Under the pieces are notes generated by a model. It had not been told where the DNA came from. It searched no databases and saw nothing but the letters and a program-made list of their open reading frames with translations. From Diphasiastrum complanatum (taxonomy: Eukaryota > Streptophyta > Lycopodiopsida > Lycopodiales > Lycopodiaceae), in NCBI GenBank assembly GCA_029204225.1, contig CM055102.1:25017390-25081389 (forward strand): 64,000 nt of DNA, written 5' to 3'. The position numbers and the translations under genes are program-made. Positions 14,581-53,950 of this stretch are shown here, one piece after another. Positions within the stretch are counted from its first letter, which is position 1; each line of letters opens with the position of its first letter.

Positions 14581-14595
14581 TTTGCACATATTCCC

Positions 14596-15234: not shown

Positions 15235-15249
15235 AGTGAAGCATCCAAA

Positions 15250-15727: not shown

Positions 15728-15738
15728 TTGAGGAGGAG
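15728..15738 (+). other. Polypurine tract
   Basis: TTGAGGAGGAG immediately precedes the TGTGAG start of the 3' LTR, as required for plus-strand priming. Confidence 0.85.
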
Positions 15739-16689: not shown

Positions 16690-18939
16690 GTACCACTAGA
16701 GCCCTGTGGATTGGTTGGTGCTAGAGCTCCTTGCCCTGGGCTTTGGCCTTGAAATGACGAGCCTTGAGCAGCAGATGGAGGCTGTTGGAATCTTGCGCCA
16801 TCTCCACCATCTGATCCATCAAAGTGGTGTCCGAGGTTATGGAGTTATGAAGCTAATGGAAGGAGTGCACTTTATGAAGTCTTGTTCAGTTATAAGCCTA
16901 AGCTTGTATAGGCGTTCACTGGATAGCTGCCTTTATAGCCTTTCTTCCAGGGTGGCGATTTGCTAGTTAAGAGCCTCGACGGAAGCAGTGTATGATTGTT
17001 GTAGTTTAGTGTGTTGCTCCGTCGTGGCTTTAAACTTTTGGGCCAACGTTTTGATAGGCCACCACTGGAATTGGAGTTCCCTCGGGATTAGCTGGTGGTG
17101 TGAAATCATTGAAATCCACCAATTCCAATTGTTTCTTCATAGCAGAATGTGCAGCTTGTGTGTCCCTTTCGGCTGTAAGGTTGTCTATGATGGTTTGCAT
17201 GTTGGAGATCTTCAATTGGAGCTGGATCTGGAGGTGGCTGAACATTTCTTGCCGTTGCTGATTATATGTGGTGAGGTTCTAAATTTGCTGCTGCTGTTGC
17301 TTGCTTTCCGCCTCCAACCTTGCTTTTTCCTTCTGAAGATCCGCCATAGCGCCATCATCAAATTGTCTCATGGTGTATTGTCCCCCTAGGGTGCCGAATA
17401 AATTATATTGGAGCTCATTCACCAACCATGCCACTTTTTGGGCTGCGAGGGGTAACTGCTCCCAAGGGCCAATGTCAAGGAGAGTGCGGGTATAGTTAGG
17501 ATATGGCATCAGATTGAATGGGAGAAAATCTAGAATTGGCGAAGAGCTTGGATTTTGAAAAAAGACATGGGGTGGTGATTGAGGGATGAGAGGGGATGTT
17601 GGTGGGGTTGATTGTTTTATGAGATGTGGTGAATGTGATGGTGACAAAATGCGTGTGGGAGATGTGTGGATCGGAGGAGTCGTGATGGCGGTGGATGTAG
17701 TCTGTGTTAATAACTGCAAAGAAAAATCATCTACATTGACTGCAGAGTCAAGTAGGGTGGAAGATTGTATAGGTGAGGGCTTTGGTGGAATTGTGGAATC
17801 AAAGCCCATGTTGAGTGTGAATGAGGGGGTGGATGCGGTGGTAAATGGTGGGGGTGGTGGTGGAAGAGTAGTTGTGATAGTAGGTAAGAAAATTGGAGCT
17901 GTGGAAGATGGCTGAGTGGACAGAACCATGCCCATGGAACCAGAACCGAAAGCGTCTGCATTGAGTGAACTGCCTGCTGCTGCTACTGCTTGTCGGTGTT
18001 GTTGGGCCTGGTGGAGTAAGGCCTCCTACTGTACTAGGACGTCCTTTGGGACTTGAGAGGGTTTTAAGCTCTCGCCAGATTTAGCATACTCTGCCCCTAT
18101 ATCACTGATAAGATATCAGGGGAGATGGTGTCGTCCGTGCTAATTGCCTTCTCTTTCTGCCTCTTTGTGGGTGGTGCTGGTGAAACAGGTTCTGCTGTCG
18201 GTTGTAGGGTGGCTTGCTTTCTGGTGCTCGGATAGACATCGTTGAGCTCTTTGATAGCAGCGTCTGCTCGATGACCCAATTGTTTGGTGACCAATATGTG
18301 GAGGAGATATCCACATTTGGTGGTTGGTTTCCTGGCTTTTAAGGCCCCGCATAACTTATCTGATACCTTTTTTGCCCACTTGTAGTTGTAAGTGGGATCA
18401 TCCATGGTGAGGGTCAAGGAGAAGAGATCACTCGGTGGGATGTGATCCATTTTCACTATATGGACCTCGACCATAGTGACTAGGATTTTTTATGCAGCCG
18501 AAGATGGAAATCTGTGAGAAGACGAATAGCTATCCTGTCGTTGATTTGGGCAATGGTTTTTCCATCCTCCGTCAGAAACTTGGTGAAATATTTGGCATCA
18601 TAACTAGTACCCTTGCCATGGATCGTCTCTCCTGGATTAGTAAATCCAATACTCTGGAGGTGCTCGGGAGAGATGTTGATGAGGGTATAATTGCCACTCT
18701 TAGATGTGATTTTTGAATGTTTGGAACTCATCTGAATAGGTTGAGTAGGTAGCTCAAATTAAACTCTCGTTCTGTTGATCAAGGAAGTAAGTCAGATCAA
18801 AGCCAAGCTTCATAAGAATATCCTTGTCCTGGATAAGTTGCTCAGCATAATTTTTGATAGAAATCATGAAAATGTCCCATTAATAGGGTTTAGGGGCCGT
18901 ACAACGATGGAGAAAGAGCGATGAGTCGCGAGAGGTCAT
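16690..18939 (-). pseudogene. Broken gene of unknown family, about 740 codons
   Basis: Read on the minus strand from ATG at 18939, one protein can be followed through several breaks. First comes an N-terminal part (MTSRDSSLFLHRC..., one stop, then 'YAEQLIQDKDILMKLGFDL'). A globular part follows with 'LINISPEHLQSIGF' and 'AQINDRIAIRLLTDF' (18480-18731). After a 1-base shift in an A run near 18480 the next part contains 'VEVHIVKMDHIPPSDLFSL' (18097-18474). Then come a Pro/Ser/Thr-rich linker (17550-17935), a predicted coiled coil rich in Gln/Glu (17030-17350), and a Gly/Gln/Ser-rich tail to about 16690. At least three stops and three shifts make it a pseudogene. I do not recognise the family. 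It sits downstream of gypsy RT-RNase H on the same strand but has its own TATA box, so it may be a host gene or a gag-like ORF of another element. Confidence 0.55.
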
Positions 18940-19048
18940 GATAGCAGTGATTCTAGATTGCTCGAGAAGTTTTGACAATTCCAAAAAAATTCAGCATGAA
19001 CTTGGTAGCAGAAATCTAGAATGAATTCGTGGAGAGAATGGGGGAGGC

Positions 19049-19058
19049 CTATATATAG
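19049..19058 (-). promoter_or_regulatory. TATA box for the unknown minus-strand gene
   Basis: CTATATATAG, about 110 bp upstream of the ATG at 18939 on the minus strand, followed by a C-rich stretch (GGCCTCCCCCATTCTC) typical of a plant transcription start region. Confidence 0.5.
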
Positions 19059-19462
19059 ACTTTTTTGGTCAAGAATTCACAACTTCACCCAAAAATTGTC
19101 CTCAGTGTCCAAGATTTCCTAGTGAGGTTCACAAATTTTGAGGCACTGTTCTGAGGGTCGGCAAATTCCTGTAAGTGATTTTTTTATACAAAAATGAGAA
19201 ATGGCTGGCAGTACAAAAATGGGTCTGATTAGAATTCGCGGAGATGACAGAGAAAAAGTGAAGATGATTTTGATGCTCAGCAAATTTGCTATGAATTCTG
19301 TCAGGGAGTATCTGATGCAATAAACTGATGTTTTTTATTTATGAAAAGTTTTTCTCTGAGACAGAATTTGTGGAAGTAAAAAATGAATCATGCATACTAA
19401 AAAAGTGATTGGGCAAATTCTATCTGAGGTGGGTGTGAGAAAAATGTTCTAAAAAGAATGAT

Positions 19463-20970
19463 TCATGTGGTTTTCTCAAGAAAAAAAATGATTGTATGCC
19501 TGATCTGATGATATCTTGATGTTGTGAGACAAGAAAACATGGCAAGAAATTGTTGAAATGGCAAGTAGGCAGGAAAGGATCCGTCAAGTGATACAACCAG
19601 TCGTGCAAGCCTTGTTGATGAGATATAGGAGTGCTTAATGATCAGTGAAGAAGGCAAAAACTTTTCCCAGAAGATAATGGTGAAACTTTTGAACCGCATA
19701 TACCATTGCCAAAGCTTCACGCTCATAGTGGTATAATTGACTTCATCGGGTATCAATTGTCTACTGAGAAATCGGATTGGATAATCCTTTTTGAATTCTC
19801 CCGGTTGGGTGAGCACTGCTCCAATGGCATACTTGGATGCATCGGTATGCACATGGAATTGTTTGGAGTAATCAGGAGCTCGGAGGATAGGTGCATTGGT
19901 AAGGGCTTCTTTGAGTTGATTGAATGTGACGCGTTGTTCATCAATCCATTTGGAGACAGCAACTACTGTGTAGATTAATCGTGCTTTATTAGTGAAGTCG
20001 AAAATAAAGCACCGATAGTAGCTGGCATGGCCAAGGAAAGAATACACTTCACAAATGGTACGTGGTTTCAGTAGATTTTGAATGACGACGATATTTTATG
20101 GGTCAGTTGCGCTGTCATTTTTTGAAATTATATGGCCTAACACAATACCGTGGGTTACCCAGATCTGGTATTTTTCAGGGTTCAGGGAGATGCCGAATCG
20201 TTGACATTGGATAAAAATTTTCTCAAGCATAGACAGATGTCGTGATTCTTCTGAATGTGCACCTAAATCATCCAAGTAAACTTCTAGGATGTCGCCCATC
20301 TGCTAAGAAAAGGCAGCTTGCATAACATGTTGGAAGGTCAGAGACCAAAGGGCATGACTTTCCAACAAAAGATTCCCCATTCTGTGGCAAATGCGATTTT
20401 ATGTTGATCTTCTTCAGCAATTTGGATCATATTATATCCGCTAAAGCCATCTAAAAAGGAGTAGGCCTCATCTCCTACTAGATTTTCTAGGATGGATTCT
20501 CCGAAAGCTAATGGAAAATGATCACGTTTTGTGACGGCATTAAGTTTATTAAAATCGACACAAATCCGGAGTTTTCCATTTTTCTTAGAAACGATGACAA
20601 TTGGGGAAACCCACTCAGTATGTTTGATTTCGTAGATAAATCCTACATCTAACAAGCATTGTAGTTCTTCTTTGATCTTGGCCTTATAGATCGGATTACA
20701 TCTATAGGGACGACTAGCAGTTGGCCTGGCACTCGGTTTAAGCGGAATACAATGCACAGCTACCTAGGTTGAGATGTCTTTCATGTCTTTATAGGACCAC
20801 GCAAAGACATGTCTATATTTTTGTAGGAGCTTTTCAAGCTGTCTGTGTTGCTCGCGACTGAGATGAGCCCCAACGCGGACAATATATCGTTACTTTCATG
20901 TGGCTTGCTCAAGGAAAGAGTGATGGTTCGAGCAGGGCCTTGCCAAGTCATTTTTTCAAGTCCCAAATCA
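19463..20970 (-). pseudogene. Ty3/gypsy RT-RNase H remnant
   Basis: Minus strand, in order: the lead-in (HVFAWSYKDM near 20770-20800 after a frameshift), then the RT start (IPLKPSARP...RPYRCNP near 20690-20750). Next are the KKNGKLRICVDFNKLN block near 20545-20590 and FSGYNMIQI near 20430. The catalytic V-Y-L-D-D lies near 20275, then GHIISKN near 20120, and the RNase H region with 'HVHTDASKYAIGAVLTQ' near 19820-19860. Stops and frame breaks occur at about 20300, 20095 and 20047. The usual integrase does not follow; after 19463 the strand leads into the promoter of the unknown gene. The Asp pair of YLDD is intact but the protein is not. Confidence 0.88.
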
Positions 20971-21704: not shown

Positions 21705-22643
21705 GTTTTCATCTAAGCTTGTCAAACTTTCTAAAACTTATGAAATTACAGATCCAGGAGAAGCAACAAAATGCCTTGGACTGGAAATAGGAAGAAATTG
21801 AATCAAAAGAAAAATGCATCTGAGTCAGTCAGAGTATGTTTAGAAAGTACTGAAGCAGTACCAAATGATAGATTGCAAAGACAAAGCCACACCAATGATA
21901 GCTGGAGCCATACTCACGAAACAAGATTGCCCGAATACAGATGAGGAGAGATAAAAAATAGAAGGTATACCCTACCAAAACCTGAGGTAGTCTGATGTAC
22001 CTCACAATCTATACCAGACCTGATTTAGCCTTATTTGTCTATGCTTTAAGACAATTCTCTTTGAATCCTGGCATGGCACATTGGCAAATGGGCAATATCT
22101 GAAGGGTGCCCAAAACATGGGATTAACCTACAAAGCAGATGAAGGCAAAGGATTTGAGCTCAACACTACAGTGATGCAAGTTGGGCGAGCTGCAAAGACA
22201 ACAACAAGTCCATGACAAGAGGATGTTCGATTGCGTGCGGAGCAGCAATCAGCTGGACGTGCAAGAAACAAACCTTGGTAGCTCAATCCTCATGTGAAGC
22301 TGAATATGTCGCAGCTTCAAAGATGGCGAACGAGGTAGTATGGTTGCAGGTGATGTTGGAAGCAGTTGGCATACGATAGAGAGAACCATGCATGATGATG
22401 ATGGATTCTCAAAGTGCCATATATCTGTCCAAGGATCATGTTTTTCATTCAAAGACAAAACATATACCTCTGAAGTGCCATCATATTCGAGACTTGATCT
22501 CAAAAGGAGAGCTCAAGGTTCAATATATAAAATCTGAAGACATGATTGCAGATTTGCTCACGAAGTTGCTCGACAAATCACTCTTCACAAGCAAAGGAAA
22601 GCAATCGGATTAAATGTACAAATTTGCAAGGTTTAAGAGAGAG
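21705..22643 (+). pseudogene. Copia RT end and RNase H (family A, copy 1)
   Basis: Plus-strand frames read ATKCLGLEIGRN near 21760, then 'DCKDKATPMIAGA' near 21870. Next come the RNase H run 'AISWTCKKQTLVAQSSCEAE' near 22242-22300, MMMDSQSAIYLSKDHVFHSK near 22395-22450 and HHIRDLISKGELKVQYIK to 22613. Several frameshifts break it. It ends in a purine tract (GTTTAAGAGAGAG) that leads straight into an LTR at 22644. Compared with the related copy at 51.8-53.9 kb, everything before the RT C-terminus is missing. Confidence 0.85.
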
Positions 22644-23363
22644 TGTCAAAAATTGTGAACTCCTGCAATTTTGTCACGAAGCGAAGCGACACGGAGTGAA
22701 GCGAAGTCGAATGGCAAACAATTCGTGAAAGTCAAACGTATCTTGAAAATCCTAAAACATGAAACAAAGCAAAAATCGAAGATCGAATGATTCGTGAAAG
22801 TCAAACATACTTCTAGGACCAAAAGACACAACACAACAAGACATGAAAAGAAAAAGAAAGAAAATCTTTCGCGCTATTAGCTGGCAGCTCAATGAGCATG
22901 GTGTCTTGTACTTCACACTCAGCTGAAACAATCAGCAATAATAGAAAATAACTAACTAGTAGTTGATTAGCGTTAACTACTCTTGTAATTCTCTGTTTAG
23001 CTATCTTGTAAACTCCACACAGTGGAGATATAAAACACAATTTTGGATGAGCAAGAAATAGAGAGAGAACATAGAGCGAAAGAGCAAAAAAGAATAGAAA
23101 ATATAGAGAAACAAAAATAGTTGTGCATGAAAGTCTGCCAACAAGCAGAACACAACGATAGGACTGACACTGATCATCTCACTCTAAACTCAAAACTGAT
23201 AATACAATTGCTCTCTCTTGTCCATCTTTTTGATTTTTGTTGTCTTGTTTGCTAGAATGATTTATGTTTAGTGATCTATAGTCGCGTGCCTAGGATCCTG
23301 TAAGCTTCCACATAAGAAAATCAAACGAACATAATCTGTTTGCGAAACCAATCTGTTTGCGAC
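22644..23363 (+). repeat. Full LTR shared by two copia copies (family A)
   Basis: 720 bp from TGTCAAAAATTGTGAAC to TTTGCGACA. A polypurine tract lies to its left and a primer-binding site (TGGTATCAGAAC) directly to its right. It therefore acts as the 3' LTR of the element on the left and the 5' LTR of the one on the right. It contains a near-repeat of a GATTCGTGAAAGTCAAAC phrase (about 22725 and 22790) and GAAGCGAAGCG runs. A TATA-like box (GGAGATATAAAACAC) lies near 23023. Confidence 0.88.
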
Positions 23364-23405
23364 ATGGTATCAGAACACTCAGGTGTTAACTACATGGTAT
23401 CAGAG
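23364..23405 (+). other. Two primer-binding-site copies in tandem
   Basis: TGGTATCAGAAC at 23364-23375 directly follows the LTR, and CATGGTATCAGAGC occurs again at 23392-23405. The second is the better match to the initiator tRNA-Met primer site. The two lie about 30 bp apart and look like a short local duplication. Confidence 0.75.
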
Positions 23406-23457
23406 CCCTCAAGTTATCACTACTAATATCTAAATAGCGATTTTCTAGGCAACACGA

Positions 23458-25200
23458 TATGGCTACAACGATCCAGACAAGAATATTAATCAGTCTTGAT
23501 GGCAGAAACTACAGGGTATGGAAATTCAATATCAAAACACTTCTGAAGGTGAAGGCATCTGGTCGGTGACTGAACTCATAGAGGTGCAGCCTCCAGAGGG
23601 AGACCCGAGGAGAGCTGAGTGGATCAGAAAGGATGAGCGTGCAATGGTGATCATCGTTTCATCCATCAACGAAAAACTACTCATGCAGATTGAAAACTGC
23701 GAAAGCAGCCATGCAACATGGGAAAGACTAAAGAAGAAGTACAAAGTGAGGACTGTCGCTTCAATGATGCATCTTCACAATCAACTGCAATCCATACGCT
23801 GGGATGTCAACTAGTTGGATTAGCACGTTGAGAAGATCAGAACGATCTTCGCTCAACTTGCTGCATCTGGACAAAAACACTAGGTCCCAACACCACAACC
23901 GCTGATGTACTTCATGAAATCTCTACTTGCGTCCTATCAGCCGTTGAGAATGCTCATACTGAGTCTTCCAGATATGACACTCGACAAAGAAATCAGTCTT
24001 GTCATTGATGAGAGACTAATGAGGGATGAAGGAGAAGGAAACAGTGATCAAAAGAAAGCTCTCTTCACAAAAGGAAGGAAGAAGAACAAGAACAAGCCCA
24101 GATTCGACGAGACAAAGTCTTCGAGCAGAGGCAATGATAATTAAGAATCTTCTTCATGTGATCACTCTCACAAACTAAGACACACAGCCAACAAATGCTG
24201 GTCCAATCCAACGATACCTTGCATGCACTGCAAGAAGAAGGGACACTCTACATGCGATTGCAGATTGAACCCAAAAAGAAAGAACAAAGCTGAGAAAGAA
24301 AATGTTGCAGAGTCATCCAAGAATGCAGATAGAGGTGATGAAGCCTTCACAATACTTGATGAAGCTTCAACAAGTTACACTGAACAAGACTATGATGTAG
24401 TCATTGATTCAGGAGCAACCTCACACATCACCTACAACAAAAGAATCTTGATCGACTTCAGAGAACTCGAAAACAACAGAGCAGTGATTCTAGGTGATGG
24501 AGCGACACGATGTCAAGGGCATCGGAACTCTACAGTTGCGAACACTGTCAGGTCAAGCAGAGCTGTCAGGAGCACTCTACGCACCTTCACTGAGAAAAGA
24601 CCTGCAATCAGTTTCCAAGATGGCAAATCTTGGAATTCGAGTTCTATTCGATGGCAATACATGCCGCATGATCGAGAAAACAACAAACAGATTGTTGAAT
24701 GCAGAGAAGAAAAATCTCTATCAAGCCAAGATTATCAACAATTCTGATAGCATATTAAATGCATCAAAAAATGAAGATCAGATCTGGCATAGGAGAATGT
24801 ATCATCTGAACATGAAGAACCTGTATGACAAGTACAAGAAAGTTAGAGTCATAGGTCTGAAGATATCCATACCCGATACCGAGTTCTACGAAGCCTGTTA
24901 GAAAGGTAAACATCATCGAAATCCATTCACACATGAGGGAAGAAGAGCCAAAGAAGTTCTTGAGCTCATCCACTCAGATGTCTGTGGACCGATGAAGGTG
25001 GATTCGCTCTCAGGATTGAGGTATTTCTTGACGTTCATTGATGATTACATCCGGATGACTACGATCTACTACCTAAAGAAAAAATCTAAAGTGTTTGACT
25101 CTTTCAAGAAGTTCATGGCATCTGCAAAGAGACACACCTCAAAGAAGATGTATCTTACAATTTGTACCCTAATTTGGCTTTCTTTGTCTATGCTTTAAGC
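23458..25200 (+). pseudogene. Copia gag-protease-integrase start (family A, copy 2)
   Basis: Gag frames run 23458-24144 (LLISLDGRNYRVW-like start, EKLLMQIENCESSHATWERL, LPDMTLDKEISLVIDERLMR). The complete CCHC knuckle CMHCKKKGHSTCDC is at 24220-24262. The protease motif V-I-D-S-G-A-T-S-H-I-T lies at 24400-24432. A frameshift near 24500 leads to the pre-integrase region (DQIWHRRMYHLNMKNLY near 24780, then CKKGKHH with the first codon changed to a stop at 24899). The integrase start HSDVCGPMKVDSLSG follows near 24972. At about 25145 the sequence jumps directly to the end of RT, so the integrase catalytic core and most of RT are deleted. Stops at 23813 and 24142 also interrupt gag. Confidence 0.88.
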
Positions 25201-25809
25201 CAATTCTCTTCCAATACTAGCATGGCGCATTGGAAAATGGAAAAATGAATCCTGTAATATCTGAAGGATACCCAAAATATGGGATTAACCTACAAAGCAG
25301 ACAATGAAAGGAAAGGATTCGAGCTGCTCCACTACAGTGATGCAAGTTGGGCGAGCTGCAAAGATGACATCAAGTCCGTAACAAGAGGATGTTCAATGGC
25401 GTGCGGAGCAACAATCAGTTGGATATGCAAAAAGCAAACCTTGGTAGCTCAATCCTAATGCAAAGCTAAATACGTCGCAGCTTCAAAGGTGGCGAACGAG
25501 GTAGTTTGGTTATAGATGATGTTGGAGGCAATTGACATACCACATGGAGAACCATGCACGATGATGATGGATTCTCAAAGTGCCATATATTTGTCCCAGG
25601 ATTATGTCTTCCATTCAAAGACAAAACACATACCTCTGAAGTACTATCACATTTGAGATTTGATCTCAAAAGGAGAGCTCCAGGTCTAGTACATATAGTC
25701 TGAAGACATGATTGCAGATCTGCTCACGAAGTCGCTTGACAAGCCACTCTTTGCAAAGAAAAAAAGGCAATTGGATTAAACATACAAAGTTGCAAGGTTC
25801 AAGAGGGAC
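25146..25809 (+). pseudogene. Copia RT end and RNase H (family A, copy 2)
   Basis: After the deletion joint, frames read YLTICT and FVYALS-type phrases. RNase H pieces equivalent to those of copy 1 follow (AISWICKKQTLVAQS near 25415-25455, MMMDSQSAIYLSQDYVFHSK near 25560-25620). Stops interrupt it at several places. It ends in GGTTCAAGAGGGAC, a worn purine tract, next to a second LTR at 25810. Confidence 0.8.
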
Positions 25810-26152
25810 TGTCAAAAATTGTGAACTCTTCCAACTTTGTCGTGAAGCGAAGCGAAGTCGAATAGCGAACAATTCGCGAAAGTCAAACGTACCTCAAAAA
25901 TCCTAAGACACGAAACAAAGCAAAAATCGAAGGTCGAATGATTCGCAAAAGTCAAACATACCTCCAGGACCAAAAGACATGACACGACACGAAACGAAAA
26001 GAAAACGAAAGAATATTTTTTGCTCTGTCAGCTGGCAGCTCAACGGGCGTGGTGTCTTGTACTTCACGCTCAGCTGAAATAGTTAGCAATAACAGAGAAT
26101 AACTAACTAGCTGATTAGCATTTACTACTCTTGTAATTCTCTGTTTAGCTAA
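25810..26152 (+). repeat. Truncated LTR of copia family A
   Basis: Homologous to the first half of 22644-23363 (starts TGTCAAAAATTGTGAACTC) but cut off at GTTTAGCTA near 26152, where the full LTR continues TCTTGTAAACTCCACAC. Several substitutions and small indels separate the two, suggesting an older insertion. Confidence 0.82.
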
Positions 26153-28185: not shown

Positions 28186-30930
28186 TACTTAGTCTTGCTT
28201 GCTCCTTTTTTCTGTGATAGAGCTCAATTCTTTTTTCTTTCTCTAAACTACTTAAGACGAGATAAATAATTCTTGCCTTAAGATGTTTGTTGAGTTCGTC
28301 TTTTACCATTAGAGAGTACTTCGTGTTCAGGCGGTATTGTCTTTTTTGAACAGGAACAATATCTTCTTTTAGATCAAAACGATGACATGAAGGAATCTGT
28401 TGGGTGCAACTTCAATTAGCTCTGTTTAATCAGGTTAAATAATACCTTCAGTCATGCTGGCCTTCGTATGGCCATAGATTTTGTGCATTGTTGATTCAAC
28501 AGATTTATCCTTGTCGACAGTCAAGTCCACATTCCCAAATTCGTCTTCAGATTCATCGGATTCGTCATTAGAATCTTCTGCATCTTGATCAGAAACTTCA
28601 GACTTGTTGTCTGTATATTAGTTTTCATATTGCATACATCAAGAAATTCTTCTTCTTTGTTTGTTAAATCATTATTCTCATAGCATTCAAAATATTTGAC
28701 TCTGATATCTGAAGCATTAGAGAAAATATCAAGTGCGTAAAAAGAATTTTCAGAAGTAAAACTTGTGTCAGGACATTGGAGTTTCTCCTTTGTATCTATC
28801 TCAACTCCAAGTAATAATTTGTTCTACTGGCTTTCCACAGTTGTTAGTTTCGCCAGTTTGAAATCTCAATTCCCTCGACTTCCAATGTACACTAGCATTA
28901 GTCTGATAAAGCCACGGCCTTCCGATCAACACAGAGTAAGAGGGCAAAGCAAGTGGCTTGATAACAATGAAGTTCATCATTAAAGGCTTTGCTTGGATAT
29001 ACATAGTGACGTCCTTTAATTCTCCCACAGGCTTCCTTCGTGTTGAATCCGCCAACTTAATATTTCGTTGAGTTGGTCGAATATCAATCAAACCCAAGGC
29101 ATGAGTTGTGTCTTCAGTTATAATATTGATGCTCAAACTTGTAATTTTGGGTGCGCCAAGGTCTCCCAAATCAATAGATAATACACTTAATTTAGGTGAG
29201 AAAATTCTTTTTTTTTTCTTAGGCATAGAAAGACCCTTTAGCTGTGTATGATAATTGGTATTGTCTGCTAATAATTGTTCAAAAGTTATGTTTGGTCAAA
29301 GAGAGCCGTTACGATATCATAATCTTTTGACTTTGCTTTCGATATTAATTTATCAATCGTGGCATCAGAAAGCCCTTCCTCAGATGTGTTGCTGCATTAC
29401 AATCATAATCAGGGTCATCTTTGAGGTCTTCTTTCGTTAAAAATTTGTTTGATGATTTTTTCTTAGAGGAATTTCTTCGTTTCTTCGAAGAAACTTTCGA
29501 ATCAGGTTTCGAGGAGCTTTTGTTTCTCGTGGTTACTTTGAATAGTTTCTCGACATCGCTTTTTGGCCAAGATTGGTCAACTGTCTTCGTCAACTTGTCT
29601 TCAATGACATCAATTCTCTGTACAACAGGATCTGTTGAAGCTTTCCCATTCGAATTTGCAACAACAACAGGTGTTGCTACATACTGATACTTAGGACGCG
29701 GCTTCTGCGGCTGTGGACACGACATATCTGATTTTTCATGGCTGTGAACAATTAGGTAAAAAATGACCTGGTTCCCCACAGTTATAATAGTTGCCCGAAA
29801 CGGGTTTTGTCGAATTCATAGCCTTTGTTGTTGGTGCCACAAACTCCGGTGGATTGTGTCTTTTGGGTGCGAATTTTGGTTTGGATTGTTGAGCTGGTGA
29901 TGTAGTACCCTAGACAAAATTCGTTGTCGCATCATTATTTTGAAATATAAATATGTGTGTTGGATCTTCGACGAACTGAACATTCACAAACTTGCAATCT
30001 TCCTTCGAATGTCCTGATGTATCGCACTTCGTACACCAAATCCCTAAATTTGAAGAAGCTTTTTGTCTTTTATCTGCAACTTCTGAATCTTGACTTTCAG
30101 ATCGTTGAATTTCTTGTTAAGATCTGCCATATCTCACTTCCAGATCTTCTCTAATTTGGATGTTGCAGGCTTATCCTCAGTGCTTTTGTTATCTTCCTTT
30201 CGTTTGGATTTTCGTTTTCTTCTTCGATTTCTATCATTAGGCTTTGTGTTTGACGAATCACTAGAATCGGATTTTGAACTTGATTCAGACTTTGAATCGT
30301 CTTCACTGCCACTAGAATCATGTTTAGATTTTTGACTTTGTCTGGTAGATCGTCTCTTTTGAGCTAACTTTGAAGTCTCATAATTCTTTGCACTTTCAAT
30401 GACTGTTGATAAGGTAGTCATGTCACCTTGTCTGCAATATCGATCAATATTTGGTGGTAAACCTGCCAAAACCCATTTAACCTGCATCGCGACAGGATAT
30501 ACTTCAGTTAGTTTTCCAATAAGTTATATTTCGAGTATACCTTCATAGAGATTCTTGACTCTTCTTCTGCACGTTGTTGAGTCTTTCAAGTACTCTGGAT
30601 GAATAACGAATTTCTCTAAACTGGTGTAGAAACGCATCTTTTAGCAGCAACCAGGTTGTCAAGCGTCCTGGTTCAACTTGGCTGTACCATTTGAGTGCTT
30701 ATTTTCTGAGAAGACGAGGAAAAATTTGTAGCTTGTCAGCATCAGTACCTTCGTTGTTCGAATTTGCAATTGATTCGAACTACGAAACATAACTATCAGC
30801 ATCATCTAAAGATGGTCCTTTGAAATAATCATATTTGATCTTCGAAATTGAAGTGAAACGGAGAGCAGGGCCTTCCATAATCAGTTTTGGTTCATGATCA
30901 ATAGCTTTTGGATCTAAGTGAAAAACACAC
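28186..30930 (-). pseudogene. Ty3/gypsy gag-protease with RT start
   Basis: Minus strand from 30930: the gag core shows 'DYFKGPSLDDADSYV' near 30810-30850, then FPRLLRKxALKWY near 30690-30720 and 'RVLERLNNVQKKSQESL' near 30545-30600. VKWVLAGLPPNIDRYC lies near 30425-30480. A Ser/Asp/Lys-rich linker (30134-30350) leads to a complete zinc knuckle CTKCDTSGHSKEDC near 29990-30032. A second knuckle near 29770-29812 has lost its first cysteine. The protease-type region includes 'YSVLIGRPWLYQTNASVHW' near 28880-28940. At 28280-28400 the RT begins (IVPVQKRQYRLNTKYSLMVKDELN) and is cut at about 28190. Stops and shifts occur throughout. It differs from the gypsy RT at 20 kb, so it is a second element. 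Confidence 0.85.
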
Positions 30931-32649: not shown

Positions 32650-32657
32650 GTTGAAAT

Positions 32658-32750
32658 CATAGTTGCAGCGAATCGCGATTCGCCAGCTTCGCGATTCGGG
32701 AATCACGATTCTACGAATCGCGATAAGCTGCAGCGAATCGTGGACAAAAT
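32658..32750 (+). repeat. Left terminal and subterminal inverted repeats of hAT
   Basis: Starts CATAGTTGCAGCGAATCGCG and contains about five variants of the GAATCGCGATTCG palindrome within 90 bp, followed by an A-rich tract at 32755-32771. Such clusters in hAT elements are usually transposase-binding sites. Confidence 0.85.
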
Positions 32751-33638
32751 CGCAAAAAAAAAAAAAAAACAAAAACCCGATTTTCGGCCTCCTCCTCGCG
32801 CACAGAACCGCGCCAGTAGTGGAGGAGGCAAATTTTTAATCTGAGAGCCGTGGGCATCCAATCTTCGCAAGTGAATACTTGGTAGGCATCTACTCGACGA
32901 TACGGTGTTGGTGTGCACGGTGCCGGGTGGGTCTGAGCTTCGTGGAGAGCGAAACGACCAAATTTCGATATTTGGTAAGTGTAGGCTTGATTTTTTGCAA
33001 TTGTTGACATTGAGCTGTAGGCAACCAAATCGAGTGTAGTCTGGCTCTAGACCACCTTTCTTCACGCCCACAGTGATTTTTATAGCATCAGTTTCAGCCG
33101 TCACGACACGCTTAGCGAGATTTGAACACCACATTCCAAATGCTTGTGTATTTTGGCCATTTCCACATAATGGCTTGTTGGAAACCGAGTGAGGTGATGT
33201 CTGAGCCTAGAATGCATTTCCACATGCTTGCACAGACTCCTATGACCTCCGTTCCGCCCGTCTACGTTCGTATCACAAATTTCAAGTTTCATGTCCTGAT
33301 TCCATACTTTTTAGGGTTTAGACGTGGACCATCGTGCAAACATCTGCTAGGGGCGCGGTTTAGGCCCACACTGCACTCCTTTATGCCTGCACGGACTCCG
33401 ACGCTAACGTCAGTCGCCTGTTATCCCTCATACAAAAATTATTCTATCCCACGCCCTAATTTCATGTTCTTCTTTGGCACTTGATATAATGTGTGAACTA
33501 GAATCGTTCTGATGTATGCTCTGGTATTTTGAGCTCTATTTGAGCTCGGTAATGTTGTTCAATGCAATGTATTTTTTTTTTCTACTGAACATTTGCCTAA
33601 TTATTTGTTGTTTGCAGATTTAGGGTCGTGTTGATACG

Positions 33639-36600
33639 ATGCCAGTGCGGGACTGAGGCCTTTGGGCCGAGGTTGAGCTTACCGACGGGGATGTGGGCAC
33701 ACACCATGGCTCAGGCACCCGCAGATGGAGATGCTTGCATTGCGGTGGTCACTTCACGGGATCACTCACCAGGGTTAGGGCTCACTTGTTGCGAGTCAGA
33801 GGGCCAGATGGGCGGACATTGGGCATATCTGATTGCCCCAGAATTTCTGATCAGGATCTGCAGAGGTTGTCTACCATGTACGGGCCCGGTACTGCATCAC
33901 AGGGTTCAGGGCTCACAGGCAGACAGGCAGGGCCTACCATGGATATTGGGCCTAGTACATCACGGGCAGGGCATGGTATAGCTGCAGGGCGTAGTACATC
34001 ATGGGTTGGGCATGGTACAGGTGCAGGGCCCAGTACATCACAGGCAGAGCATGGTACAGCTGCAGGGCCCAGTACAGCACGGGCAGAGCATGGTTCAGGT
34101 GCAAGGCCCAGTAGAGCACCTTCAGTTCCATCCGCAGCAGCAGCAGGACCATCAGATGAGCATGTTGGTTCAGCAGCAGCGGGTGCTTCTCGACCCTCCT
34201 CCTCGGCAGCAGATGCACCACATGCTTCGGCAGATGTTGCCAGAGAGAGTGACACCCACAGATCAGCCATCCGTTGGGCATGCCAGACCACGAGCACCAT
34301 ATACACAGCAGAGAGGGGTTAGGCCCAGGTAGCAGACCCTTGATCGATGCGGCTGGCAGAGAGAGCAGCAGGCCCGTTGCACTCGACTGTGTGGCCAGTT
34401 CTTTTACGAGTGCGGCATTGCCTTTGCTGTTGCTGACACTTGGGTGTTCAGGGAGTTCTGTGCACAGATGGCGGCCATGGATGCTACATGGACACCTCCC
34501 AGGCGAGAGGCACTACGAGGCAGGTTGCTTTGTCAGGAGGAGGAGACCATCACGCGGGAGTTGAGTTTCATTCGGTCAGCTTGGCAGTAGTAAGTAACTT
34601 GTCTTTGTAATCTCTTTGCATGTGTTTAGGATTTACTGGTGCCGTAATTTTTGCATGTAGCTAATGGGTGTTTTGCGACAGGTATGGATGCACGATACTG
34701 AGCGATGGATGGACCGACATTCATCGGCGATCCGTCATCAATGTCTTGGTTTCTTGCCCGCTTGGCACAGTATTCCTACGTGGCGTGGATGCCACTCGAG
34801 GTGGTGACGCCATCACAGCCGATTTCATATGGGAGGTCATTAGAGATGTTACTGCTGACATCGGAGATGAGCACGTGGTTCAGGTTGTCACCGACAACGC
34901 CTCGAACTGCAAGCAGATGGGCGAGATTATGATGAGGGAGCACCCCAGCATTGTGTGGACACCCTGTGCTGCACATTGCATGGACTTGCTCATCCATGAC
35001 CTATGTGCACTTCCGTGGATCATAGAGGTATAGTTTGTTTTATTTGCTATGCTTTCTTCCTTCGATGCTGCTAACCACGTCTCAACTACTGTCTAAACTT
35101 TTTTACTGGGTGTTTGTGTTGCAGATCACTTCTACAGCCATGCGCCTGGTCACTTTTGTCACCAGGAAGAGGCGTGTGTTGGCCCTGTTCCGCACCTTCT
35201 CCACCCTAAACCTGAAGAAGCCCGCACCCACACGCTTTGCGTTTTACTTCTTGGTGCTAGAGCGATTGGTGGTGGTGAAGGATGCATTGCGGCAGATGGT
35301 TTCCATCATGGCCTTCCGGGACTTTACAGACCTCCCCCATTCGGCATTTTTCCAGTCCACTGTGTACGGCGACGAGTTCTGGAGAGCTGCTGAGGAGATT
35401 AGTGGGATCCTACTACCCATTTACAGAGTGCTGCGTCTGGTAGACCGTGAGGGGTGCACCCTCGGTCTCATTTACGAGTTCATGGAGCGCATCGGCGAGG
35501 GGATTCTGTTGTCAGCCTTGGACGAGCATAGGTATGACTCTTCAGTGTCTAGTTTGTTGTTTCTCACTCGAGTCTGATGCGTTTCTTTTATGCTATGGTT
35601 TAGTGATTGTTGTAATTTGTCTGCTGCAGGAGGCGCGAGATCTCACGCATCTGGGAGGCTAGATGGGACTACTTCCACCGACCCATCCACGCCGTAGCCC
35701 ACATGTTACACCCCTTGTGGCGCTCTACACGAGAGAGGGACGATCCGGAGCTGCACCGGGGATGGGTGGAGTACATGGAGCGCGTATGGCCCGGACCAGG
35801 TACGTGTGAGAAATCATTTGGTAGCAATGTTACTGCAGTATTGTACTCATTGGTAGTGTCTGAATTTGAGGGGTCTTACATGTGCCATGTTTTTCCTTTT
35901 GCCAATAGGTCCGATGCTGGCCAACATTGCAAGCCAGCTGCTCGCATTTGAGCGCTTCCAGTTTCCTTTCGATGGAGAGCAGAGTTGGCGGAGGGAGGAT
36001 CAGCTGAGGCCCGTTACATGGTGGTGCATCCACGGGCGCAGCACAGGTGACCTGAGGCGATTGGCTGAGAGAATCCTTGCACAGGACTGTTCTGCAGGAG
36101 CTTGTGAGCGGAATTGGAGCACCTGGGCCTTGTATCACACGCAGAAGAGGAACAGGTTGTCCATCGAGCAGTGTAGGCGGTTGGTGTTTGTGAACACCAA
36201 CGGCCGTATGCTGAGGCGCACACGAGGAGAGGGTCAGATGCTCGAGGTGAGTCACATCATCACCCCTTTTTTCTTGGTATGCTTTGGTGAATTGATTTGC
36301 TTTCAAAATATGCAGTGAGTTGCACAATACCTGCCTAACAACAATGTATTGTTTTTGGTTGCAGGTGGACCCCGACACTTGCTTGGTGGATTCGATAGCT
36401 GCTGCTCCTCGGGCACCACCCACACAGGAGGAGATGGATGATGAGATCCATAGAGAGCTCTACAGACAGGCACAGGCTGACGCACGGGCTTTACGGTGGC
36501 AGAGGAGGACAGAGAGACAGAGGGAGAGGGCTGAGGAGGGAGATGACAAGGTCTCGGAGGGTGGAGAGATGCTCGGGGCACACTATGTGGAGGAGGAAGA

Positions 36601-37142
36601 GTGGGTTGAGGGAGATATAGAGGAGGACGAGGAGATGTGGGCGGAGGCACAGGGGGGTGACCTGGCTGACCTGCTAGTGGACCCTGATGCAGAGACAGAG
36701 GAGGAGCCAGCCATTCCTACACGTAGGCCTCGGGGGAGACCTAGAGGTTCTAGGAGGGGGGGGGATGAGTACTCTTTTTGTAGACAGGAGTGGAGCATCA
36801 CAGGTAGTCGTTGGCCAGGCATCATCACAGTGGGTAGGGCCATCCCAGGGCGTAGGGTTACGGCCACCTGACACACAGGCACGACGGAGTAGACACAGGG
36901 CTGGGGGCAGCCAGATGGGGGCCAGAGGAGGGGAGAGAGGCAGAGGCAGAGGCAGAGGCAGAGGCAGGGAGAGGGGGGTGGTCCAAAGCCAGGGCACGCA
37001 GCAGGGATCCAGAGCACGCAGCAGAGCCAGGGCCACACCACGACATATGGCTCCCTCCAGTTCCGATTCATCTGCGGACCCATGGGATCTGCAGTCCACA
37101 GATTCGGATGATTTATCCTACCATGACTCTGACGAGCCTTAG
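33639..37142 (+). pseudogene. hAT transposase gene, six exons, lightly damaged
   Basis: Exons read as 33639-34586, 34682-35027, 35125-35531, 35630-35799, 35909-36246 and 36365 to 36871 or 37142. All five introns are GT-AG and keep the reading frame. Exon 1 has a BED-type finger (RWRCLHCGGHFTGSLTRVRAHLL, 33720-33790). After a low-complexity linker it has FFYECGIAFAVADTWVF at about 34395-34445. Exon 2 is the DUF659 signature: GCTILSDGWTD, then VVTDNASN and WTPCAAHCMDLL. Exon 5 carries the hAT dimerisation motif (PVTWW, then CERNWSTW and KRNRL). The tail is acidic, then AT-hook-like (RRPRGRPRGSRRGG), then Gly/Arg-rich. Damage: TGA at 33654-33656 five codons after the likely start, a frame change in the linker, TAG at 34330-34332, and a probable shift in a G9 run at 36756-36764. 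Confidence 0.9.
33948..34110 (+). repeat. 39-bp coding minisatellite in transposase linker
   Basis: Four tandem 39-bp units start at 33948, 33987, 34026 and 34065, with a partial fifth at 34104. In the BED frame each encodes a 13-residue GPSTS-A-HG--A repeat. In the frame that joins the downstream exon it is Gln-rich (MVQVQGPVHH type). Confidence 0.9.
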
Positions 37143-37310
37143 TTATATAGTTTTCATTACGTTCATGGAACATCATTGTACCCCTTTTTGGTGCCATGTG
37201 GCCCGATATTATATATTATGATGATCCTATTCACAACATTGTCGTGATTCAGTATTGTTCTTTGTGGTTTTAGTTCAGTAACTTCGGTTTTATGGTTTAT
37301 GATTTATGGT

Positions 37311-37352
<42 letters not shown>

Positions 37353-37679
37353 AAGTATGGTTGTTTTGTCAAAAATTGTTTCATTTAAGGCTAAAGTTCA
37401 GAATGATTCAGCTAGGTTTTTGTTCAGCATGGTTTTAGTTCCGTTTGTTGTGAATCGTGATCAGAGAGAGATAGAGAGAGGGAGAATCAGAGAAAGGGAG
37501 ATTCCTGCCACTAGGAATGCCCCAATGTGTTCACTCTTTTTTATATGGGATGCAGCTTTAGCGTAAAGGGACCATCCTGCACCTGAAACAGTCGGCAAAC
37601 TACACAATCATACTCCCCTCGATCAGAGCTTTCATCTGATACCCATATTGCACAAAAAAATTTCAAAAAAAAAAAAAAA

Positions 37680-37780
37680 TTCGATTCTACACGATTCTGG
37701 GAAAATCCCGAATCGCGAATCGGGATCGCGATTCTGATCGCGATTTTGAATCGCGATTCGCGAATCGCGGTGCAACTATG
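37680..37780 (-). repeat. Right terminal and subterminal inverted repeats of hAT
   Basis: Reading inward from 37780 on the minus strand: CATAGTTGCACCGCGATTCG, then at least four more GAATCGCGAT/ATCGCGATTC variants to about 37690. The outer 10 bp match the left end exactly, and the inner palindromes are arranged differently from the left end. Confidence 0.85.
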
Positions 37781-40530
37781 GTTGAAATATCCACAATGGA
37801 AGTAGTGGAGTGAATAGGTTTAGCTGGAAGTACATGATCCTGAAGTACAAACTTACCAAAAAGACTTTGTTTATAGACATGAATGAGAAGTTTCCCCCTA
37901 GTAGGTTTCCCTCTTTCATTCCATTTCATTCTCATTGACATTGACATTAAGACGTTAAGACAATGTATGCATTGATATCTGGTCAACTTTCTTTTATTTT
38001 AATTGAATATATGTTCTTCATGAATGCCATGCGTTGATATTTGGTCACCTTTCTTTTATTTTAATTGAATCTCACACGGAACTTATGATAAGAATCAAGA
38101 GACCCAACATTTATGATCTAATTCTCTTTCATGTCAAGTTGAAAATTGCCTCTAGTGTAGTAGAAAGTAGGGATAGTTGTTCACCCTTTTTTCAATGTTC
38201 AAATTTTTTTGCCATAATTTAGTTGTCATTTCATGAGGGACTTCCAAAGTGATGCTAATGACTTTTCTGCAATTCTTGATTCACTTGGTCAACTTTGTGA
38301 CGATTTGGACGTTTTTTATTCCTCAGTATTCATGCCTTTATGGATATGTCAAATCACTTACTCATCTATCTTTTTGATGATTAAGACTTTCAATGTTTTA
38401 TATTTATGCCTTTACCTTTTCAATTCAACTACTCACTTTTCTTTTATCATGATTTGGACCTTTCTATTTTATTCTATTTTGGAATTTGCTCCATGATGTA
38501 TGGCAATGAGAATGAAACTCTTTGTTGCATGTTCATAGATTTCCATTCTACCTCTAGTCCTAGTTACAATTTTTCCATGCCAATTTTTCCTCAACTGAAA
38601 TGAGCACATCATTGAGTAGCCCTGGGCCAAAACCTTGAGAGGGCATAAATGTCTTTCTAAAAATCTTTACCATTGGTCCTCGATGCTTTTACTAGTGGTA
38701 TGGGTAATTTTTGAAATTGTGGCCTTTCAAATGACCCTGACCAACAGTAAAGATCACTAGAATGAGCATTTTCTTCCCTAAAGGTTGAGTGGAAACTGAT
38801 TCTATCTTACCTATAATTATCCCAAGATGTGCTCTTAAAATTTTTCCCAAACCACCAACTAAATGTTTAATTATCCTAAAAATGTGGTGTAAAATTTCAG
38901 GCATTATCTTCCATAATAAATTGATCTACCAACACTGCACAAATTTTACCAGCAAGATTTTATGGGCAGGTAAATTTTGAGGGACTTTTCCACCCTCCTA
39001 AGGATTTCTTCATTTTAACTCTGAATTTTTGAGGAGAGGCCTAAAACTAAACCTAAACCTTGAGGGGGCTTCAATACATTAAAGAAATGTACTGTTTTTA
39101 GTAGGATTTACAAACATAACTCCAAGCCAGAGGTGGATAGCAAACACTGTGATGATTAGTTAATGAGCAGTAGTGAATCTACTTTGAAAGTTCATAGTGT
39201 CAGATGTGATGCTGATTTGATTGTGTCATAATGAACGCCATGAAAGGAGGTTGGACTTTTATGCTGATTACTCCACTTACACTTCCTAAATGCACATGAC
39301 CATCACCACAAATTAAAAGATGCTAAAAATATTTGATCAAGAAAAAGTCCAGAAGTAACCAATTTTTAAGTGTTGTGCCTGATTATTATTCTTGTACATG
39401 AATATCCGCGGTTGAAATCCACACCTCAGTGCATAATTATCCAGATTACTTTGACTTTGCATCTGCCATCGAGAAAGGATAACAGTGGTATCTCCCAGTT
39501 TATCAATGTGACTGCTTGACAGAAACATGAAAACAAGGCTGGTTGGTAAAATTTCTAACCATTAACAGTGGCCTACCATTTTTTACTCACATAAAAGAAA
39601 GTTCAAAAGAGGACCCCAGATAAACAACAGTGCTTGGGAAAAAATGCAGACTAGAAATTTCTGTTTGATATCGGATTATGGAGATAAAACCTTGTTGGAA
39701 AATATGGAAAAGAGCATTGCATCTGGCGGTTTACTCAAGACCAATTCAAAGAGCTGTAAGCATCTGAGTATCTCTGATTTCTAACAAAATAGGTATGCAA
39801 ATATGAAAGTATACTTTGGTTCAAGTTCATAGTATTTTCAAAACAAGATGGAATATATGCTTCCACCAAAAGAAGAAAAGATAGGTAAATGAAAAATATG
39901 CTGAATATCTGACCACGAATAAGCAAAGTACAAACCCCATACCACAATAATAAGTGCATCAAGCTTGCAATACTCTGCTAAAAGTGTCAACAGTACAATC
40001 ATGTAGACGGATCAGCTCAAACTTGCAAGAAAGAGTTACACCAGCTCTCCTGATCTTATTGGTTTGAAGCTTCCTATTTTCTTCAAAAATTCTGAGGCCT
40101 TAGGAAACCATCACACCAGCATACAATTCTGGAACATCATAGAAATCATGTAATGCTCGTCTTTTAGCAGATAAAATGTACATCCTAAGGCTAGTATAAA
40201 GTTGCAAGCGCAATTATGACCACCTTCTGATTGTGAGGAGTTGAAGCGAGATAGATCCCCTTATATCAGTAAACGCCATCGTAATTCTCAATTTCGGAAA
40301 TAGTTTCCGTTTATCAATGCCCTTCTCACTTCTCTCAGCCACTTTGGAAATTTGCTAAATGTTGCCATAGTAGCCTGTGTTTCAACCCCTGCCGTGTTTG
40401 ATCAAGATGCTCGTGAAGATCTGACAAAATAAACCCTCACAGAATAAACATTCAGCGAGAAATCTCCAATGCTGGCCAGAGTTCTGAGGAAAGAATGGGA
40501 AAATGGCCGCAAGAATGAACTGCCCAGGTA
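37781..40530. other. No gene recognised (3' side of the ATL gene)
   Basis: AT-rich DNA between the hAT element and the ATL gene. Its part from about 39700 to 40538 is downstream of the ATL stop codon and presumably holds the 3' UTR and polyadenylation signals, which I could not place with confidence. Two near-identical phrases (TTGATATCTGGTCAACTTTC at 37971-37990 and TTGATATTTGGTCACCTTTC at 38034) form a 63-bp-spaced repeat. Confidence 0.4.
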
Positions 40531-40538
40531 GTCCGAGT

Positions 40539-41108
40539 TTACACAAAGGGCACGGGGACGTGAATTGGAAGGGACAATCTACTACTTTGCAAAGGATGCC
40601 GCGCGAGAGGGACTAATTCAGAGAGAGGAGTGGAAATGGGGGTAGTGAGGGGTGTTAGCAGGGGGGATGTTCGGCACATGGGACAGGAAGCATGAAGATG
40701 AAGCCAGGAATCAATGCAATTCGCATGGAATACATGGCGACATTCGGGCATCATCCGCAAAACCTCCTCATCTTTATAATCCGCCAAGCAGATGGAGCAA
40801 GAGGTGCTCTCGGCATGAGGAGGCAGAAGAGGCTGCTGCGAGCTGAAGATGATCTTGGGGTACGATTCCAGTGTTGCCTGATCAAGCCCAGCAACGCCCA
40901 TCAGCCGCTCTTGCCCAACCGCACCCTGCTGCTGCTGCGCTACTGCCTGATCGCGCTCCCTCTGGGATCTCATCCTCACGCACACATAGGATGCGAGCAT
41001 GATCGCAGATACGAGCACCAGAATGCCAGCAGCGATGGCGATGCCGTATCCCAGCCCCACTCTACTCGTATTATCTCCCATCCAATCCACCGAAGAATTG
41101 GTCGCCAT
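40539..41108 (-). CDS. ATL-family RING-H2 E3 ubiquitin ligase (ATL67-like)
   Basis: An intronless 189-codon gene starting at ATG 41108. Residues about 20-44 form one hydrophobic membrane segment (GIAIAAGILVLVSAIMLASY). The conserved G-L-D motif is at residues 74-76, followed by LESYPK. The RING-H2 finger has every zinc ligand: C104, C107, C123, H125, H128, C131, C142 and C145. W135 is the tryptophan that contacts the E2. The C-terminal STPLSELVPL-like segment and the membrane segment place it next to Arabidopsis ATL67 rather than the defence-type ATLs. Known ATLs are membrane-anchored E3 ligases that pass ubiquitin from an E2 to target proteins, often in stress signalling; the substrate here is unknown. 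Length and absence of introns are normal for the family. A CT-rich tract at 41151-41182 lies in the likely 5' UTR. Confidence 0.95.
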   Translation of the reverse strand: MATNSSVDWMGDNTSRVGLGYGIAIAAGILVLVSAIMLASYVCVRMRSQRERDQAVAQQQQGAVGQERLMGVAGLDQATLESYPKIIFSSQQPLLPPHAESTSCSICLADYKDEEVLRMMPECRHVFHANCIDSWLHLHASCPMCRTSPLLTPLTTPISTPLSELVPLARHPLQSSRLSLPIHVPVPFV

Positions 41109-41554
41109 CCCTCCTTCCTCCTACAATTGTCAGATCACACACACACCCCCATCTCTCTCTCTCTCTCGTTCTCTCTCTCTCTCGGAATTCCAAAAAGGAA
41201 AAGTGGGGATGAATTTGATGCTTTTTTTGCACTGACTACTTGAGCACATTTAGGAAGTACATCATCTTTGGGGACAACAAGCTCTTCTTCTACACCAAAA
41301 AGTTTGAGATTGTGGGAGTTAATAAGAGTAGGGTGAGTTAGGGATTTGGTAAATAAGCTACATCTAGTTCAAATCTGGAGGCGTACATAGTAGGCCCTAG
41401 CACACCTCCCAACCCAACACCTTTTTTTCACATTCCAAGACTAATGTTCACCACGACGCTTCACATCCACAAACTCTTTCGCACATCCACGACCTGAAAG
41501 GACAAAGAAATGAGTGTAGGGACAAGGACAAAGAAATGAGTGTAGGGACTGGGG

Positions 41555-51234: not shown

Positions 51235-51761
51235 TTGACGCTCTACTCTTTCGTTGTGTTCTACTCGTTGGCAGACTTTCATACACAACTGTTTTGTTTT
51301 TATGCTTTTTTCTTTTCTACTCTACTCATACATATTCTCTGTGTCTCACTATATATATTTTGATCTAGAAAAATTAGTTTATATCTCCACTGTGTGGAGT
51401 TTACAAGATAGCTAAATAGAGAATTACAAGAGTAGTTAACGCTAATCAACTAATCAGTTACTCTCCGTTATTGCTACCCATTTCAGCCGGGCGTGAAGTT
51501 TAAGACTCCAAGCCCGTTGAGTTGCCAGCTGACAGCGCAAAAGATTCCCTTTCGTTTCTTTTCGTTTTGCATCGCTTTGCGGTTTTTGTGGTCCTAGAGG
51601 CATGTGTGATTTTTGCGATTTATTCTCGAATCATTCGACCTTCGAGTCAAGGTACTTGACTTTCACGAGTTGTTTGATCTTCGCAAATCGTTCGACCTTC
51701 GAGTCAAGGTACGTTGACTTTCACGTCACGGCAAAGTTGCTGGAGTTCACCATTTTTGACA
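51235..51761 (-). repeat. Truncated LTR of copia family A, inverted
   Basis: Minus-strand start TGTCAAAAATGGTGAACTCC at 51761 follows a purine tract (TTCAAGAGGGAG). The body matches 22644-23363, including CCACTGTGTGGAGTTTACAAGATAG and GTTGTGTTCT-CTGTTGGCAGACTTTCAT-like stretches. It is cut near 51235 before the LTR end. Confidence 0.85.
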
Positions 51762-53950
51762 CTCCCTCTTGAACCTTGCAGCTTTGCACGTTCAATCCAA
51801 TCGTCTTTCTTTGCTTTGTGAAAAGTGGCTTGTGGCGGTTTCATGAGCAGATCTGCAATCATGTCTTTAGATATTATGTACTGGACTTGGATCTCTCCTT
51901 TCAAGATCAAATCTCGAATGTGGTGGTACTTTAGAGGTATGTGTTTTGTCTTTGAATGGAAGCCAAGATCCTGGGACAGATAAATGGCACTCTGAGAGTC
52001 CATCATCATCGTGCATGGTCCTCCTTGGAGTATCCCAATTGCCTCCAGAATCATTTGCAGCCACACTATCTCGTTCGCCATCTTTGAAGCTGTGATGTAT
52101 TCAACTTTGCAAGAAGACTAAGCTAACAAGGTTTGCTTTTTGCATATCCAACTGATTGCAGCGCACGCTATGGTACATCCTGCAGTTATGGACTTGCTGT
52201 CATCTTTGCAACTCGCCCAGCTTGCATCACTGTAGTGGTGCAGCTCGAATTATTTTCCTTCGTTTTCAGCTCTATAGGTCAATCCCATACTTTGGGTCCC
52301 CTTCAGATATTGTAGGATTCGTAATGTGCCATGCCAGGATGGGAAGAGAATTGGCTTAAGGCATAAACAGAGAAAACTAGATTGGGTCCGGTACAAATTA
52401 TAAGGTACATCAGACTACCATTAGGTTTTGGTAGGGTATACTTGCCATCTCTTGTTCTTCCTCTTTCGTTTTTGGACAATCCCGCTTCGTCAACTTGGCA
52501 CCAGCTATCATTGGTGTGGCCTTTTCTTTGCAGTCCATCATGTGATACTGCTTGAGCACCTCTCTGGCATATTCGGACCAACTCAAGTGCATTTCGCCCT
52601 TTGTTCGATCTCTTTTGATTTTCAGCCCGAGGCATTTCGTTGCTTCTCCTAGATTTATGATTTCATAACTTTCAAAAATCTAACTCTTCGTGTCTTTGAT
52701 CAACATCAAGGAATTTCCTATCATCAGGGAATCATCCACAAAAATAGTCAGTATCACAAAATCTTTTCCTACTCTTTTTATGTAGACGTTACAGTCCGGT
52801 TGTATAGGATTGAATTCTAGAGACTTCAGAAGACTATCGAGTTTTTTGTACCAAGCTCGTGATGCCTATTTTAGACTATAAATGCATCTCTGCAACCGAC
52901 AGACATATTGTCGATTGTCGGGGTCTTCAAATCCTTCAGGCTGCTTCATGAAAATTTTCTCCTCTAGATCTCCACGGAGAAAGGTTGTTTTCACATCAAT
53001 CTGGTGAATTTACAGATTGTTCTGTGTGGCATATGCAAGGAAATAATCAACACCATATCTTTGTGTGTAGCCTTCTCGACAAGCCTTGTCTTGTAGCGGC
53101 CAACGGTGCCATCTGATTTCATTTTCTTCTTGTACACCCATTTGTAGTCGACGATTTTTCTGTTTTCTGGCAGTGGCTTTAGTGTCCATGCCTCGTTTTG
53201 CCTCATTGACTCGATCTCCTCTGACATTGCCTGCTTCCAGAATTCTCTCTCTGGACTCTGGACTGCTTCTTGATATGTTGTTGGCTCTTCAGTGAATCTG
53301 TAGTACTCAAATTGCGTGTCTTCGCTCCACTGAAGATTGTCAGTATAACGGTCTGGAGGTCTTCATTGTCTTGTTGATCATCCGGCTGTAGTCATCTATG
53401 AACATCAGGAAATACCTCGATCCTGAGAGCGAATCCATTTTCATTGGTCCACAGACATCTGAGTGGACGAGCTCAAGAATTTCTTTGGTTCTTCTTCCCT
53501 CATGTGTGAATGGATTCCGATGTTGTTTGCCTTTTTGACAAGCTTCGCAGAACTCAATATCGGGTCTTGATATCTTTAGACTTGTGACTATGTCTTTCTT
53601 ACACATGTCATACAGGCTCCTCATGTTCAGATGCTACATTCTCCTGTGCCAGAGCTGATCTTCATTCTCTGATGCATTTAATATGCTATCAGAGTTGTTG
53701 ATTATCTTGGCTTGGTAGAGATTTCCTTCTCTGCATCCAACCGTCAGCAATTTGTTTGTATTTTTTTCGATCATGTGGCATGTATTGCCATCGAACAAAA
53801 CTCAAATTTCAAGATCTGCCATCTTGGAGACTGATAGCAGATCTTTTCTTAGTGAAGGCACGTAGAGTGCTCCAGGCAGCTTTGCTTGGCTTGACAATGT
53901 TTGCAGCTATAGAGTCCCGATGCCTTTGACATCGTGTTTGCTAAATCTGA
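51762..53950 (-). pseudogene. Copia pol remnant (family A, copy 3)
   Basis: Minus strand from 53950: the protease tail and pre-integrase region, including a knuckle-like CEACQKGKQHRNPFTHEGRR near 53510-53565. The integrase start HSDVCGPMKMDSLSGSRYF follows near 53415-53470. At about 53365 the integrase core is missing and the sequence jumps to the linker before RT. RT then follows: AWTLKPLPENRKIVDYKWV near 53140-53200, 'DVKTTF', FVDDSLMIGNSL near 52715-52755, and DCKEKATPMIAGAKL near 52495-52535. RNase H closes the reading (MMMDSQSAIYLSQDLGFHSK near 51965-52025, then YHHIRDLILKGEIQVQY). Several stops and shifts interrupt it. This copy still has an almost whole RT region that the two plus-strand copies lack. 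Confidence 0.88.

Follow-up and report, generated by a model that had tools for sequence, protein, structure and literature searches.

The window, a stretch of 64,000 nucleotides of Diphasiastrum complanatum, contains near its middle a DNA transposon of the hAT type. Its gene lies on the forward strand between exact repeats, and the following features were recognised:

32650-32657: left copy of the target site duplication (TSD) GTTGAAAT, 8 bp, identical to 37781-37788
32658-37780, + strand: hAT element of 5,123 bp, its DUF659/hAT gene enclosed by exact terminal inverted repeats (TIR) and an exact TSD
32658-32667, + strand: left TIR CATAGTTGCA, 10 bp, exact
32670-32725: left array of palindromes (6 strand-hits at four distinct sites)
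32975-33617, + strand: likely leader intron (GTAAGT...TTTGCAG), called by eye and not scored
33639-34586, + strand: first coding exon, broken, with stops in the candidate frames
34587-34681, + strand: intron 1, GT-AG, 95 bp, junction codon checked
34682-35027, + strand: exon with most of DUF659
35028-35124, + strand: intron 2, GT-AG, 97 bp
35125-35531, + strand: coding exon
35532-35629, + strand: intron 3, GT-AG, 98 bp
35630-35799, + strand: coding exon
35800-35908, + strand: intron 4, GT-AG, 109 bp
35909-36246, + strand: exon with the hAT dimerisation domain
36247-36364, + strand: intron 5, GT-AG, 118 bp
36365-36871, + strand: last exon, an acidic, RG-rich tail, stop codon at 36869-36871
37704-37766: right array of palindromes (9 strand-hits at five distinct sites)
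37771-37780, - strand: right TIR, the exact reverse complement of CATAGTTGCA (10/10 bases)
37781-37788: right copy of the TSD GTTGAAAT, identical to 32650-32657

The exact 8-bp duplication and the exact 10-bp inverted ends announced in the earlier note were both verified at these positions. The duplicated octamer matches the hAT pattern nTnnnnAn, which is given as the target pattern of Hermes (PMC10368747) and, from earlier studies, also of hobo (PMC3276498). All pairs of exact 10-bp inverted ends with exact 8-bp direct repeats, at a spacing of 0.3-12 kb, were searched for in the whole window. Two were found without filtering, the element (32650-37788) and a pair at 4154-7247. The latter (CATCTTCATC, TATTTATA) is simple sequence, a two-letter repeat, and is probably due to chance. 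A filter asking for at least three letters in end and repeat, put on the shuffles only, would drop it. With this filter there is one pair in the window, and one pair was found in one of 40 dinucleotide shuffles. By themselves, TIR and TSD are thus only moderately improbable. The boundary call is firm because of the gene that they enclose rather than because of the repeats alone: TIR, TSD and DUF659/hAT gene are co-extensive, and the description of the locus as an exactly bounded hAT transposon was right.

From position 34333 onwards the gene can be read without interruption. Splicing of 34333-36871 gives 673 codons and a single final stop. The five GT-AG introns are short (95-118 bp) and have 38-39% GC, versus 53-63% in the exons. 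The donor of intron 1 is CA|GTAGTA; use of the adjacent GTAAGT would create a stop codon at the junction. A frame change at the run of nine G (36756-36764) in the C-terminal region was considered and rejected, the preceding frame staying open to the stop at 36869-36871. Downstream of this run, codon preference (trained only on 34682-36246) scores the uninterrupted frame at 4.8 versus -6.0 and -12.6 for the two others. If the likely leader intron (32975-33617) is included, the exon count would be seven, not six.

Two Pfam families were identified in the product of spliced 34333-36769: DUF659 (PF04937, 3.3e-42, 144.2 bits versus a cut-off of 34.7) and Dimer_Tnp_hAT (PF05699, 8.1e-7, 29.2 bits versus a cut-off of 21.4). 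DUF659 includes hAT transposases, mostly from Viridiplantae (as described in PMC3985635). Both domains occur above their cut-offs and in the same order as in the DUF659-type transposases of plant hAT elements. In searches of solved structures, the four best matches (E 0.0046-0.0059 in one search and 0.0041-0.0051 in the other) cover only 68 residues of the dimerisation region. Two of them are named Hermes transposase; the other two are named only 'transposase' and we take them to be Hermes as well. One of the two structure searches also gave a Vpx protein (E=0.55), taken as a chance match. The E of the motif ACERNWS aligns with that of ASERTFS in Hermes. The two putative catalytic D positions of the RNase H-like fold are presumed from motifs.

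The N-terminal part is broken. Frame 1, which is that of DUF659, is open over 33601-34586 except for stops at 33979 and 34330, and no zinc finger was recognised in it by eye. Frame 0 has an ATG at 33639 followed by a stop at 33654, is open over 33657-34319 and carries a zinc-finger-like stretch. This stretch shows a CxxC...H...C arrangement (CLHC...RAHLL...C), spotted by eye, which we take to be the pattern of BED-type zinc fingers. Pfam gave no family, BED or other, at E<=0.5 on 221 residues of frame 0; on 77 residues a zinc-finger family matched with E=0.12 (13.2 bits versus a cut-off of 40). Two frame-1 pieces matched no Pfam family. The fold predicted for the zinc-finger stretch, from one sequence, has a very low mean pLDDT (42.1). 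The first coding exon also includes a 39-bp tandem repeat (33948-34113; 4.3 copies, 85% matches) with a period that is a multiple of three. The linker made of these repeats and the acidic tail may be particular to the family of this element.

A first codon-preference scan, trained on 34333-36720, was circular over that region, and the training set was changed to 34682-36246. With the latter, frame 0 is the least bad over 33657-33860 (-5.2 versus -8.6 and -14.5), frame 2 is the best over 33861-34113 and frame 1 the best over 34114-34319 (-2.5 versus -17.2 and -9.7). Codon preference is only mildly informative here: it decides little on the upstream frame and gives no support to frame 0 past 33860. 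If frame 1 is native, two point changes would explain the breaks. If frame 0 is native and the zinc-finger-like stretch real, two stops (33654 and 34330) and a frame change before 34330 would be involved.

The earlier note had proposed a six-exon BED-DUF659-hAT-C gene, nearly intact and silenced by a few point changes. DUF659, the hAT dimerisation domain and the five GT-AG introns were recovered, while the BED domain was not found by Pfam. 'Nearly intact' describes the gene from 34333 on, with its 673 open codons, and does not extend to the N-terminal part. A few point changes are enough under frame 1 (two stops); under frame 0 a frame change is needed too. As assembled, and whichever upstream frame is native, the copy lacks the coding capacity for a full transposase. 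The clean 673-codon frame could in principle yield a protein devoid of the N-terminal part.

That the breaks are confined to the first coding exon would fit assembly errors or an unrecognised intron in a gene that is in fact intact. In this exon 53 intron candidates keep a frame open. However, among the best 25 of the 53, ranked by pyrimidine content, none has a convincing acceptor tract, and these 25 have 58-60% GC versus 38-39% in the clear introns. An additional intron was rejected accordingly among these 25, none being convincing, and an intact gene is considered unlikely. A domesticated, hAT-derived host gene lying by chance between repeats would likewise show a long open frame and clean introns, but the exact TIR and TSD persist and the N-terminal part has stops in both candidate frames; such an origin is extremely improbable.

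The locus is therefore best described as a full-length, formerly autonomous DUF659-type hAT DNA transposon that has decayed. Confidence in this reading is high, given the exact TIR and TSD, the presence of both DUF659 and Dimer_Tnp_hAT, the five introns with 673 open codons and palindromes located at the tips.

These palindromes were searched for in the whole window, on both strands and with at most one mismatch, as the motif AATCGCGAWTC. All 15 strand-hits are located in the element ends (6 left, 9 right) and none outside them. The expected number is 1.01, and none of 100 shuffles reached at least 15. Many sites are matched on both strands because the motif is self-complementary, and the hits correspond to nine distinct sites, each at most 80 bp from the element tips. 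In the right array, Tandem Repeats Finder counts 4.6 copies of GAATCGCGATTCG. Because of these palindromes, the first 100 and the last 101 bases of the element fold better as single strands than their shuffled versions do (z -5.83 and -4.18, respectively, with none of 200 shuffles per end folding equally well). Their position is that of the subterminal transposase sites of hAT elements and, by this analogy, we infer that they are putative binding sites of this transposase.

The two ends are also rich in CpG (observed/expected 2.31 and 2.59). The corresponding values are 0.97 in the leader part, 0.42 in the first coding exon, 0.71 over 34682-36246 (introns included), 0.37 over 36365-37142 and 0.49 from there to the right end. 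For comparison, the 10-kb flanks give 0.61 and 0.45. Of the 63,901 windows of 100 bases, 220 contain at least 10 CpG, and 185 of these are on the two element ends; the other 35 are found at 25830-25853 and 51614-51636. This difference in make-up between the ends (2.31 and 2.59) and the body (0.37-0.97) is what a non-autonomous or captured assemblage would show, either hAT ends around the transposase gene of another hAT family or a nested insertion. However, the gene, both ends and the duplication all coincide in extent with a single pair of exact TIRs. Moreover, of the 110 pieces that blastn aligned between the element and the window, 9 lie in the element and the others are purine-rich simple repeats; no other copy of the element was found in the window besides such repeats. 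An assemblage is thus very unlikely.

The CpG palindromes (GAATCGCGATTC type) might act as a switch through symmetric methylation, in which ends that are unmethylated, or half-methylated following replication, would be bound and fully methylated ends would not. This idea is speculative and rather doubtful. If true, it would represent a compact variant of the control by methylation that has been put forward for Ac/Ds. According to PMC12910297, methylation at GC-rich subterminal repeats has been implicated in the activity of Ds, but methylation alone did not predict transposition in the elements tested there. The CpG palindromes provide a simple case for asking if subterminal methylation controls hAT movement.

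The element resembles Ac/Ds of maize in its short TIRs and subterminal repeats, and Ac/Ds also makes an 8-bp duplication. The TIRs of Ac/Ds are described as 11 bp long and several AAACGG subterminal repeats as bound by its transposase (PMC3260210). In contrast, the repeats of the present element are palindromic, located at most 80 bp from the tips and devoid of this hexamer: neither strand of the outermost 200 bp at either end contains AAACGG. Like Hermes and hobo, the element has duplicated 8 bp that follow the nTnnnnAn pattern. In Hermes, BED domains are reported to bind a quasi-palindrome made of subterminal repeats 1 and 2 (PMC10368747). The element differs from Hermes in that the protein match is limited to 68 residues, with E of about 0.004-0.006, and in that BED is undetected by Pfam here.

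By analogy with Hermes and Ac, the transposase would bind the subterminal repeats, pair both ends and then excise the element; insertion at an 8-bp staggered target would duplicate GTTGAAAT. The ends still look recognisable, and we infer that this copy is at most movable by an enzyme made elsewhere.

The target site appears to have been near-palindromic. The joined flanks read GTGGAT-GTTGAAAT-ATCCAC, where the six-base arms are perfect inverted repeats, and the expected empty site with a single GTTGAAAT is GTGGATGTTGAAATATCCAC. Arrangements of this 6-8-6 type are present at 62 of 63,980 window positions (about one in a thousand), a figure that applies to a palindrome spotted after the fact in one insertion. 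The target motif of hobo is described as a palindrome exceeding its duplication in length, and those of the Drosophila families studied there as palindromes reaching at most three bases past the duplication, that of hobo comprising 14 bases (PMC3276498). The target of the present element is comparable in kind but not in length, its arms having six bases versus at most three.

Taken as a whole, this is an ordinary, well-delimited decayed element of the DUF659 type, which adds one unsurprising specimen to a well-known family. For one hAT family it supplies a gene model together with exact ends and a duplication, which can be used for masking and for finding non-autonomous relatives and a working copy. 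Pattern searches for relatives of the transposase gave seven matches in a collection of bacterial and archaeal contigs and one in a collection of viral contigs, both collections being without plants; none of these matches was confirmed.

Elsewhere in the window there are copia- and gypsy-like fragments and a RING-H2 frame, which point to a probable land-plant host. Rfam and ARAGORN gave no matches in the whole window. A Copia-type LTR retrotransposon is located at 11456-16532, its repeats (11456-12280 and 15739-16532) showing 93.2% identity among the matches listed. Its gag frame (12962-14104) matches Retrotran_gag_2 (1.1e-28). The regions 21728-26151 and 51248-53937 include related stretches in several arrangements, with 76-86% identity among the matches listed, and are overlapped by copia-like frames recognised by eye. 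Gypsy-like frames are found on the - strand at 17279-20763 and 28801-30523, with RT_RNaseH_2 at 19463-20095 (2.3e-25); 17279-18025 and 28801-29295 matched no Pfam family, and the remaining gypsy-like calls were made by eye. Finally, an open frame for a RING-H2 protein (40539-41120, - strand; zf-RING_2, 2.5e-13) lies about 2.8 kb from the element and is probably a host gene.
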